Assembly: GCA_001704575.1 (NCBI GenBank) | Contig: MCAW01000004.1 | Span: 100,598-164,597 of the forward strand | Direction of reading: 5' to 3' | DNA length: 64,000 nt | Origin: Methylophilales bacterium LSUCC0135 | Lineage (GTDB): Bacteria > Pseudomonadota > Gammaproteobacteria > Burkholderiales > Methylophilaceae | In this document: one piece after another, positions 39,428-43,875 of the stretch | Position numbering within the stretch: position 1 is the stretch's first letter | How the letters are laid out: the number at the start of each line of letters is the position of its first letter | Notes under the pieces: generated by a model | The model's input: the letters and a program-made list of their open reading frames with translations, nothing else | Database searches by the model: none | What the model was told of the DNA's origin: nothing | Program-made: the position numbers and the translations under genes

Positions 39428-41289
<1,862 letters not shown>

Positions 41290-41328: not shown

Positions 41329-41363
41329 ACAAAGCCCCGTTGAAAAACGGGGCTTTGTTTTTT
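41329..41363 (+). terminator. Rho-independent terminator of groESL
   Basis: ACAAAGCCCCGTT and AACGGGGCTTTGT arms (13 bp) around GAAA, followed by TTTTT. It is about 105 bases after the groEL stop. Confidence 0.93.
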
Positions 41364-41489: not shown

Positions 41490-41590
41490 AAAAAAAACCC
41501 CGATTAAAGGGGATAAATCGGGGTACAAACGCCTCATCGTAAAGGCTACCCGCTCAGGGAGGAGAAGCGGGAGATGGAAATTTCCATCTA
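41490..41590 (-). ncRNA. Candidate trans-acting sRNA with CUCCUCCC loop
   Basis: Read on the minus strand the region folds into three consecutive hairpins: GATGGAAATTTCCATC (41573-41588, perfect palindrome); CCCGCT / AGCGGG (41549-41571) with the loop TCTCCTCCCTG, which exposes an anti-Shine-Dalgarno CUCCUCCC; and a terminator ACCCCGATT / AATCGGGGT (41497-41524) with a C-rich loop, ending in eight T. No protein is encoded. CUCCUCCC-loop RNAs are known as regulators in other proteobacteria (Rhodobacter CcsR group). No clear sigma70 promoter was seen, so the 5' end is a guess. Together with the groEL tandem copy and terminator this accounts for the 449-base gap 41225-41673. Confidence 0.5.
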
Positions 41591-41673
41591 TTTCTGTGAC
41601 CGGCCATTCCGGCCGTAAGTTCAAAATTCGACAGCACAAAATTCACGGCAATTGGCATGCGATAATAACGCGC

Positions 41674-43875
41674 ATGAACACGCACATCAGCTCCGATTCC
41701 CTGCTTTCCGGCCTCAACGACAAACAGCTCGAAGCCGTCACCCTTCCCCATCAGTCCGCGCTGATTCTTGCCGGTGCCGGCAGCGGCAAGACCCGCGTAC
41801 TCACTACCCGTATCGCATGGCTGATCCAGACCGGCCAGGTCTCGCCGCAGGGTCTGCTGGCCGTAACCTTCACCAACAAGGCAGCGAAGGAAATGCTGAC
41901 GCGGCTTTCTGCCATGCTGCCGATCAACACGCGCGGCATGTGGGTAGGCACCTTTCACGGCCTTTGCAACCGCCTGTTACGTGCCCATTACCGCGAGGCA
42001 GGTTTGCCGGCGACTTTCCAGATTCTCGATTCCGCCGACCAGCTATCCAGCATCAAGCGCCTGATGAAGGCCATGAATGTCGACGACGAGAAATTCCCGC
42101 CCAAGCAGGTCATGGGCTACATCAACAGCTGCAAGGAGGAAGGGCTGCGCGCGCATAGCGTCGAGGCTTACGACAGCCATTCGCAACGCATGCGGGAAAT
42201 CTACGAGGAGTACGACAAGCAGTGCCAGCGCGAAGGCGTTGCCGATTTCGCCGAACTGTTGCTGCGTTGCTACGAACTGCTGGGCCGCGAAGCCAGCATC
42301 CGCCAACACTATCAAAGCCGTTTCAAATACATTCTGGTGGATGAGTTCCAGGACACCAACCGCCTGCAGTATCAGTGGCTGAAACTGCTGGCAGGCCAGG
42401 AAAAAGCCGGCGAGCAAAACTGCATTTTCGCCGTTGGCGACGATGACCAGTCGATTTATGCCTTCCGGGGTGCGCGGGTCGGCAACATGCGAGATTTCGA
42501 GCAGGATTTCCATGTAGAGAACATCGTCAAACTGGAACAAAATTACCGCTCGCACAGCAATATTCTCGATGCCGCCAACGCCATCATCACGCACAACCGC
42601 AACCGTTTGGGCAAAAACCTGTGGACAGCCGCAGGCAAGGGCGAACCGATCCGCGTCTATCAGGCCTACAACGACATTGACGAGTCCAACTTCATCGTCG
42701 ATGAAATCAAGGGGTTGCATGCCGATGGTATGGAGTTGAACCAGATCGCCATGCTCTACCGCTCCAACGCACAGTCACGCGTACTCGAACATGCGTTGTT
42801 CACCGCCGGATTGCCCTACCGCGTCTATGGCGGCCTGCGTTTCTTCGAGCGCGCCGAAATCAAGCACGCGCTGGCCTATTTGCGGCTGATCGCCAATCCC
42901 GAGGACGACACCGCGTTGTTGCGCGTGATCAATTTCCCGGCACGCGGCATCGGCGCACGCAGCCTGGAACAATTGCAGGAAGCCGCCAGACAGCAGAATT
43001 GCAGCTTGTGGGCGGCCGCCATGACGCTTGCCGGAAAGGGAGACGGGGGCAAAGGCAAGGGTATTCCGGCCTTCGTGGCGCTGGTCAAACAAATGCAGGA
43101 AGAATCCATCGGCCTGACGCTGGCAGAACTGGCAGAACTGGCGAGTACGCTGTCCGGCATGCGGCAATTTTATCTGGGCGAAAAGGAAGGCGAGGACCGT
43201 ATCGCCAACCTCGATGAACTGATCAATGCGGCCGTCGCCTTCACCAATCAGGACATCGGCATGCAGGTGGATGAAAACGGTGAAACGCAATCACTGCTGA
43301 CCCAGTTTCTCAGCCACGCCAGCCTTGAAGCAGGCGAGCATCAGGCCGATATCGGCCGCGATGCGTTGCAGCTGATGACGGTGCATGCGGCCAAGGGGCT
43401 GGAATTCAAGACCGTGTTCATCAGCGGGCTGGAGGAGGGCTTGTTCCCGCACGAACAGAGTGCTTATGAAGCAAGCGGTCTGGAGGAGGAGCGGCGACTG
43501 ATGTATGTCGCCGTGACCCGCGCCCGGCAGCGGCTTTACCTGAGTTACGCGCAAAGCCGCATGCTGCACGGGCAGGTTCGCTATGGCATTCCGTCACGTT
43601 TTCTGGACGAGATTCCGGAAGCGCTGCTGAAACGCCTGAATGCAACGGCCAGCCCTGGCAAAATCGCGGAGCAGAACTTTCAAGCTGCGCCATCTTCCGC
43701 GCAGAAGCATGCAATGCCTTGGAAAATCGGCCAATCGGTCGCGCATGCCAAATTCGGGCAGGGTGTTGTCGTCAGTTATGAAGGCAACAGCAACGACCTG
43801 CGCGTGCAGGTGAATTTCGGCAAGGAAGGCATGAAGTGGCTGGCGCTGGAATACGCCAAACTGGAAAAAGTCTAA
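41674..43875 (+). CDS. uvrD: DNA helicase II UvrD
   Basis: A 733-residue superfamily 1A 3'-5' helicase for nucleotide-excision and mismatch repair. LAGAGSGKTRVLTTRIAWLI (Walker A), LVDEFQDTNRLQY, VGDDDQSIYAFRGA, VKLEQNYRSHSNIL and LMTVHAAKGLEFKTVFI are canonical. The C-terminal WKIGQSVAHAKFGQGVVVSYEG is a UvrD-type Tudor-like tail (it interacts with RNA polymerase in homologues). The start at 41674 has only a weak site. Its end overlaps the convergent gene by 4 bases. Confidence 0.94.
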   Translation: MNTHISSDSLLSGLNDKQLEAVTLPHQSALILAGAGSGKTRVLTTRIAWLIQTGQVSPQGLLAVTFTNKAAKEMLTRLSAMLPINTRGMWVGTFHGLCNRLLRAHYREAGLPATFQILDSADQLSSIKRLMKAMNVDDEKFPPKQVMGYINSCKEEGLRAHSVEAYDSHSQRMREIYEEYDKQCQREGVADFAELLLRCYELLGREASIRQHYQSRFKYILVDEFQDTNRLQYQWLKLLAGQEKAGEQNCIFAVGDDDQSIYAFRGARVGNMRDFEQDFHVENIVKLEQNYRSHSNILDAANAIITHNRNRLGKNLWTAAGKGEPIRVYQAYNDIDESNFIVDEIKGLHADGMELNQIAMLYRSNAQSRVLEHALFTAGLPYRVYGGLRFFERAEIKHALAYLRLIANPEDDTALLRVINFPARGIGARSLEQLQEAARQQNCSLWAAAMTLAGKGDGGKGKGIPAFVALVKQMQEESIGLTLAELAELASTLSGMRQFYLGEKEGEDRIANLDELINAAVAFTNQDIGMQVDENGETQSLLTQFLSHASLEAGEHQADIGRDALQLMTVHAAKGLEFKTVFISGLEEGLFPHEQSAYEASGLEEERRLMYVAVTRARQRLYLSYAQSRMLHGQVRYGIPSRFLDEIPEALLKRLNATASPGKIAEQNFQAAPSSAQKHAMPWKIGQSVAHAKFGQGVVVSYEGNSNDLRVQVNFGKEGMKWLALEYAKLEKV

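Follow-up and report, generated by a model that had tools for sequence, protein, structure and literature searches.

The RNA family closest to the locus described here is anti-hemB, which is catalogued in Rfam as RF02837 and is also called Burkholderia RNA 7 or ncS04. In B. cenocepacia it is a 105-nt transcript, documented by dRNA-seq and Northern blot, which binds Hfq and whose level is unchanged across seven tested conditions (PMC5688073). Related in design are ErsA of Pseudomonas (RF01719), which together with Hfq represses oprD and depends on AlgU/sigma22 (PMC7264166), and sX13 of Xanthomonas (RF02232), which acts without Hfq and represses mRNAs with G-rich motifs; repression by sX13 needs both its C-rich loops and the G-rich motifs near the start codons (PMC3771888). 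The same study notes that polA adjoins both sX13 and Spot 42. Finally, NmsRA and NmsRB of Neisseria repress translation through anti-Shine-Dalgarno motifs (PMC5362039). We liken the RNA studied here to NmsRA/NmsRB by description, and the differences are that these form a sibling pair, are linked to the stringent response and carry anti-Shine-Dalgarno motifs in a linker as well as in a loop.

We analysed a 64,000-nt stretch of the Methylophilales bacterium LSUCC0135 genome (contig MCAW01000004.1; hereafter the window). Reading the sequence between groEL and uvrD reveals an intergenic RNA gene on the minus strand, whose features are listed in Table 1. When the whole window is scanned with cmscan, RF02837 is the sole Rfam match above cut-off (66.0 bits against 49.5, E 3.2e-13, covering model positions 1-81 of 81). 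Our own model, built from 64 homologues across the order, gives 93.7 bits (41593-41490) and no second match in the window; this model includes the window's own copy, so its score is not independent. The minus strand at 41590-41488 folds at -39 kcal/mol, whereas shuffled sequence averages -23.1 (sd 2.9; z -5.5) and none of 200 shuffles matches the native value; the predicted fold consists of four hairpins, which we call P0, P1, P2 and the terminator. P0 is formed by a perfect palindrome, AGATGGAAATTTCCATCT, and P1 presents a 13-nt loop, UUCUCCUCCCUGA, which is identical to the RF02837 consensus and contains CUCCUCCC at 41564-41557; the terminator of the family is present too. A first-pass annotation of this DNA had proposed an sRNA gene whose anti-Shine-Dalgarno loop is exposed and which ends in a terminator of its own, and this is supported. 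Of the three hairpins it described, all are found where it saw them, including the one with CUCCUCCC in its loop and the last one, a terminator with eight U; what it missed is P0, the fourth. On these sequence grounds the locus is confirmed as a predicted regulatory RNA gene of about 100 nt and a new member of an already known family, RF02837. It is present in one copy in its own genome (2.1 Mb, 99.8% complete).

Table 1. Features of the RNA locus and its surroundings (window coordinates).
Feature	Coordinates	Strand	Basis or remark
-35 element TGAACTT (consensus GGAACTT)	41617..41623	-	conserved in 95/117 loci (99/117 if the -10 is relaxed slightly)
-10 element GTCACA, 16 nt past the -35	41595..41600	-	GTCACA also in L019, L020 and L024
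Predicted sRNA transcript, RF02837	41490..41589	-	Rfam match 41574-41490 and own-model match 41593-41490; start inferred
5' hairpin P0 (AGATGG/CCATCT)	41572..41589	-	covariation; outside the Rfam model
Hairpin P1 (CCCGC/GCGGG), presents the loop	41549..41571	-	Rfam alignment and covariation
Anti-Shine-Dalgarno loop UUCUCCUCCCUGA	41554..41566	-	CCTCCCTGA exact in 110/117 homologues
Hairpin P2 (GCCUU/GAGGC)	41531..41546	-	folding and covariation
Terminator hairpin, C-rich loop UAUCCCCUUU	41497..41524	-	folding and covariation; UCCCCUU in 85/117 homologues
U8 tract, intrinsic terminator	41490..41497	-	sequence
uvrD, divergent neighbour	41674..43875	+	same place in other Methylophilaceae loci examined

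Compared with RF02837 as known from ncS04, the window RNA shares the P1 loop, P2 and the terminator and matches the model over its whole length. It differs in lying beside groEL and uvrD without a hemB neighbour, in having the 5' hairpin, in a promoter of sigma-E type, which is missing in Burkholderia, and in its terminator loop, which is C-rich in place of the U-run of the Rfam consensus. Other families fit poorly: the window RNA scores 28.8 bits on the RF02278 toxic sRNA model (cut-off 50), 18.0 on ErsA (gathering score 50) and 18.1 on the alphaproteobacterial family ar14 (cut-off 58.8), while sX13 gives no listed match to it at E up to 5 and none in its genome at E 1e-4. Membership of the RF02278, ErsA or sX13 families is accordingly rejected, all three lying below the Rfam cut-offs. 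RF02278 and the double-hairpin RNAs ncS27 and S17 do share with it an unpaired, CU-rich segment that is complementary to ribosome-binding sites, along with a terminator, but they have two hairpins, unlike the window RNA. CcsR1-4, the cuckoo RNAs of Alphaproteobacteria, come as a processed array and are defined by an RpoH-type promoter and an upstream small ORF. They resemble the window RNA in carrying CUCCUCCC in a loop, and the first-pass annotation had placed it with such RNAs of Rhodobacter and its relatives. That placement is not supported: the window RNA is a single gene of another lineage, the CcsR-type promoter and small ORF are absent and a sigma-E-type promoter and 5' hairpin lie directly upstream instead, RF02837 is beta- and gammaproteobacterial, and, in a comparison made at the level of Rfam families, no alphaproteobacterial family reaches its cut-off.

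How widely is this RNA distributed, and which parts of it are kept? A homologue search finds it in 51 of 61 relatives. Across 299 genomes of the order, 234 have some match and 191 a match above the cut-off, usually in single copy. Elsewhere in the class, matches at E up to 1e-7 turn up in 40 of about 230 genomes, mostly under the Rfam cut-off; of the twenty such matches that we fetched, all but two carry a loop of CCUCCCUGA type or one closely resembling it. The RNA is missing from Methylophilaceae with genomes of about 1.3 Mb; among complete genomes of 1.3-1.4 Mb in this family, G018, G019, G036, G243 and G327 are without it, and the three checked for rpoE (G018, G019 and G036) keep that gene. 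We also note tandem or multiple copies (sibling sRNAs) at L299 (G464:C33, four in a row), L282 (G408), G534:C1:2994116-2994385, G446:C7:32511-32782 and G229:C10.

We tested covariation for 25 named pairs in 64 diverse members of the order, aligned with MAFFT by sequence only. Paired cells make up 87.6% of the total, against 33-51% in slid controls, and 21 of the 25 pairs show double-sided changes. For P0 the figures are six of six pairs and 87.5% of cells, and a test that needs no alignment leads to the same result. In 94 of 117 loci the five bases ahead of the core have an upstream partner with which they form five pairs, whereas swapping the upstream regions among loci lowers this count to 50 on average and 59 at most. 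The loop behaves quite differently from the stems, its core (CCUCCCUGA / CCTCCCTGA) being exact in all but seven of the 117 homologues, so that the conservation in relatives which the first-pass annotation had proposed checking is indeed found. Stems that change around loops that stay constant are the pattern expected of a base-pairing RNA. Outside Burkholderia the terminator loop is conserved as well (CUCCCCUUU; see also Table 1), which suggests a second pairing loop inside the terminator itself.

We now turn to the promoter. Aligning the DNA upstream of the homologues brings out GGAACTT-N15-17-TCTNA at an almost fixed distance from the RNA, to be compared with the sigma-E consensus of E. coli and Salmonella, GGAACTTTT / GTCAAA (PMC1804206). 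Requiring at least 9 of 11 matches to this consensus, we find a sigma-E-type site upstream in 95 of the 117 loci; a control stretch 150 nt upstream has one in 0 of 116, and shuffled sequence in 3%. With TCW allowed the count rises to 99 (26 of 29 in Methylophilaceae), while among control windows 45 of 3122 show a site. Elsewhere in the class, in orders other than this one, the figures are 23 of 26 against 23 of 726. The window's promoter itself agrees moderately with the consensus, at 9 of 11 positions, T replacing G in the -35. The genome holds seven instances of the pattern GAACTT-N14-18-GTCWNA and more of its reverse; because the genome-wide motif alone is uninformative, the case for the promoter rests on conservation. 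Sites before rpoE itself are not convincing, as they score 8-9, values that are common in the background. A consensus scan of the minus strand shows no sigma-70 promoter. RpoE is encoded in the same genome (G000:C1:25214) and in 59 of the 61 genomes of the relatives set; both genomes without it also lack the RNA, and eight further relatives (G018 and G019, for example) have RpoE and no RNA. Transcription would begin at the A at 41589, the first base of P0 and six bases past the -10, because the start rules of sigma-E place it there, and the predicted RNA is then 100 nt long. From this arrangement we infer that the window RNA depends on RpoE. A link to stress, which the first-pass annotation had raised, is plausible on the ground of the conserved sigma-E-type promoter.

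The promoter is of another kind in Burkholderia, Paraburkholderia, Caballeronia, Pandoraea and Trinickia, where the upstream element is GGTATATCATACC or TGGTATATGATA. Within the narrow-sense Burkholderiaceae (L126-L205, e.g. L185 of B. cenocepacia and L133 of Pandoraea) this element is conserved and replaces the sigma-E-type promoter; the palindrome could be an operator. Such a difference fits the unchanged level of ncS04 and may explain why a connection with sigma-E went unnoticed there.

The neighbours of the RNA vary with lineage. Flanks in the order-wide survey of 117 loci are engB and hemB in 62, engB only in 18, hemB only in 3, uvrD with or without groEL in 29, with 5 left unassigned; many of these loci are only 800 bases long, and the 29 of uvrD type are those of Methylophilaceae. 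In other orders of the class, polA and/or engB flank the RNA in 26 of 31 loci (three of which were fetched with the ErsA model), and L300 shows the order polA, RNA, engB. In the window, polA is 5 kb from the RNA. The groEL neighbour is thus incidental, since most relatives have the RNA at engB-hemB or polA-engB, and we reject a heat-shock link through groEL: the neighbour changes between lineages and groEL/uvrD is a position seen in Methylophilaceae only. Two further features near groEL deserve mention, a strong terminator-like hairpin downstream of the gene (aaagccccgttgaaaaacggggctttgtttttt, window 41334-41361) and a near-repeat of its end directly past the stop codon (ggcggcatgatgtaatcatg / gcggcatgatgtaatcgtg, window 41205-41265).

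The polA-engB locus raises the question of how anti-hemB relates to ErsA and sX13. ErsA resembles the window RNA in its sigma-E/sigma22-type promoter, 5' hairpin, C-rich-loop hairpins and terminator (L298), and its polA neighbourhood is common to the non-beta relatives of the window RNA; the ErsA-family RNA of L298, which lies downstream of polA, lacks the CCUCCCUGA hairpin, and the low ErsA score of the window RNA has been given above. With sX13 the shared feature is the C-rich-loop hairpins, and we found no sigma-E-like site at the sX13 loci L301-L303. Several RNAs fall in between. A four-copy tandem array near polA in G464 is matched by the anti-hemB (35.9-41.8 bits), sX13 (48.3) and ErsA (37.1) models; one and the same RNA in G391 is matched by sX13 (37.9) and anti-hemB (47.3), and another in G556 by ErsA (35.0) and anti-hemB (38.7). 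Run over 232 genomes at E 1e-4, the ErsA model picks up just three matches. Each lies near polA, and two of them are also anti-hemB matches. A model built from beta sequences only, R1, gives the intermediates 40-55 bits; ErsA (13.8) and sX13 (12.2-15.7) score weakly on it, no better than the RF02278 RNAs with 15-18 bits. A common origin of anti-hemB, ErsA and sX13 is likely, though not proven, on the strength of intermediates and synteny, the direct similarity being weak. We regard as evenly balanced the fuller proposal that the three are a single ancient lineage of the polA-engB (Spot 42) locus, which would originally have been a sigma-E-driven C-rich-loop RNA damping many ribosome-binding sites under envelope stress, with the gene later carried to groEL-uvrD in the family of the window and its promoter rewired in Burkholderia.

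For the window RNA, we consider it probable that it is a trans-acting sRNA made by RpoE under envelope stress, whose C-rich loops block the Shine-Dalgarno regions of a set of mRNAs, probably with Hfq. RpoE (sigma-E) polymerase would start the RNA at about 41589 and stop at 41490; the RNA would fold into its four hairpins; the invariant loop CUCCUCCCUGA and the C-rich terminator loop would pair with purine-rich, AGGGAGG-like Shine-Dalgarno regions; and ribosome binding would be blocked, so that translation of these mRNAs would fall under envelope stress, Hfq probably taking part. This mechanism is drawn by analogy with sX13, the NmsRs, ErsA and ncS04. In the genus, AGGGAGG sites precede real start codons of ctaB (L310, L314, L333), a pilin-like gene (L308), an ftsW-like gene (L332) and a gene for a DUF805-like membrane protein, names that we assigned by eye from the sequences. 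We list these genes as weak candidate targets, AGGGAGG being also an ordinary Shine-Dalgarno sequence. The AGGGAGG ribosome-binding site of the ctaB-like gene (heme o synthase) is conserved genus-wide and complementary to the loop. A near-complete complement, AGGGAGGA..ATG, occurs in two places besides the sRNA itself, and neither is retained as a target: one lies upstream of an aspartokinase-like gene and off its start codon, and the other has no convincing gene start.

Other explanations can be weighed against this one. The same sRNA could be driven by the housekeeping or another ECF sigma factor and serve constitutive metabolic tuning, as ncS04 seemingly does in Burkholderia. The steady level of ncS04, the GGTATATCATACC or TGGTATATGATA element in Burkholderia and its four companion genera and the missing sigma-E-like site at L301-L303 all speak for this, and GGAAC-type -35 elements are common to several ECF factors. 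Yet most of the other lineages, with nearly all Methylophilaceae loci among them, have the sigma-E-type element at an unvarying distance, and we consider this alternative unlikely. Dependence on RpoE aside, the C-rich loops might bind a partner other than mRNA, for instance by titrating some protein or a second RNA. In favour of this, the loop varies less than a seed for several targets would need to, and it is anti-Shine-Dalgarno-like rather than gene-specific. Against that, repression by sX13 requires C-rich loops together with G-rich mRNA motifs (PMC3771888), and NmsR and ErsA act on mRNAs; we hold a partner other than mRNA to be quite improbable.

The family name invites a third reading, that the RNA is a cis-antisense regulator of hemB. 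It does adjoin hemB in most Burkholderiales, chiefly in the engB-hemB arrangement, but neither the 3 kb around the window's RNA nor any of the 29 loci of uvrD type yields a hemB, and other orders combine polA/engB flanks with the same loop. With no hemB beside the Methylophilaceae copies, the neighbourhood contradicts this reading, and we give it very little credence. Least credible of all is that a mere terminator and some intergenic hairpins mimic an RNA gene. The element is intergenic and ends in a terminator, as this would have it, but conservation spans the order, double-sided changes affect most of the named pairs, and expression of a homologue, ncS04, has been measured.

Our literature search, which reached few subscription papers and so leaves priority uncertain, found no work joining anti-hemB to ErsA or sX13. 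The promoter of sigma-E type appears to be previously unreported, as do the 5' hairpin and the connection with polA-engB, ErsA and sX13. RF02837 has so far been listed as a Burkholderia RNA without an assigned role. We find it above cut-off in about two thirds of the sampled Burkholderiales genomes, and it reaches other Gammaproteobacteria, which bears on a question posed in the sX13 study (PMC3771888), namely whether other bacteria have sRNAs at the polA locus and whether these act as sX13 does. For this family, the conserved promoter type predicts when the RNA would be made, and the invariant loop predicts how it would act.
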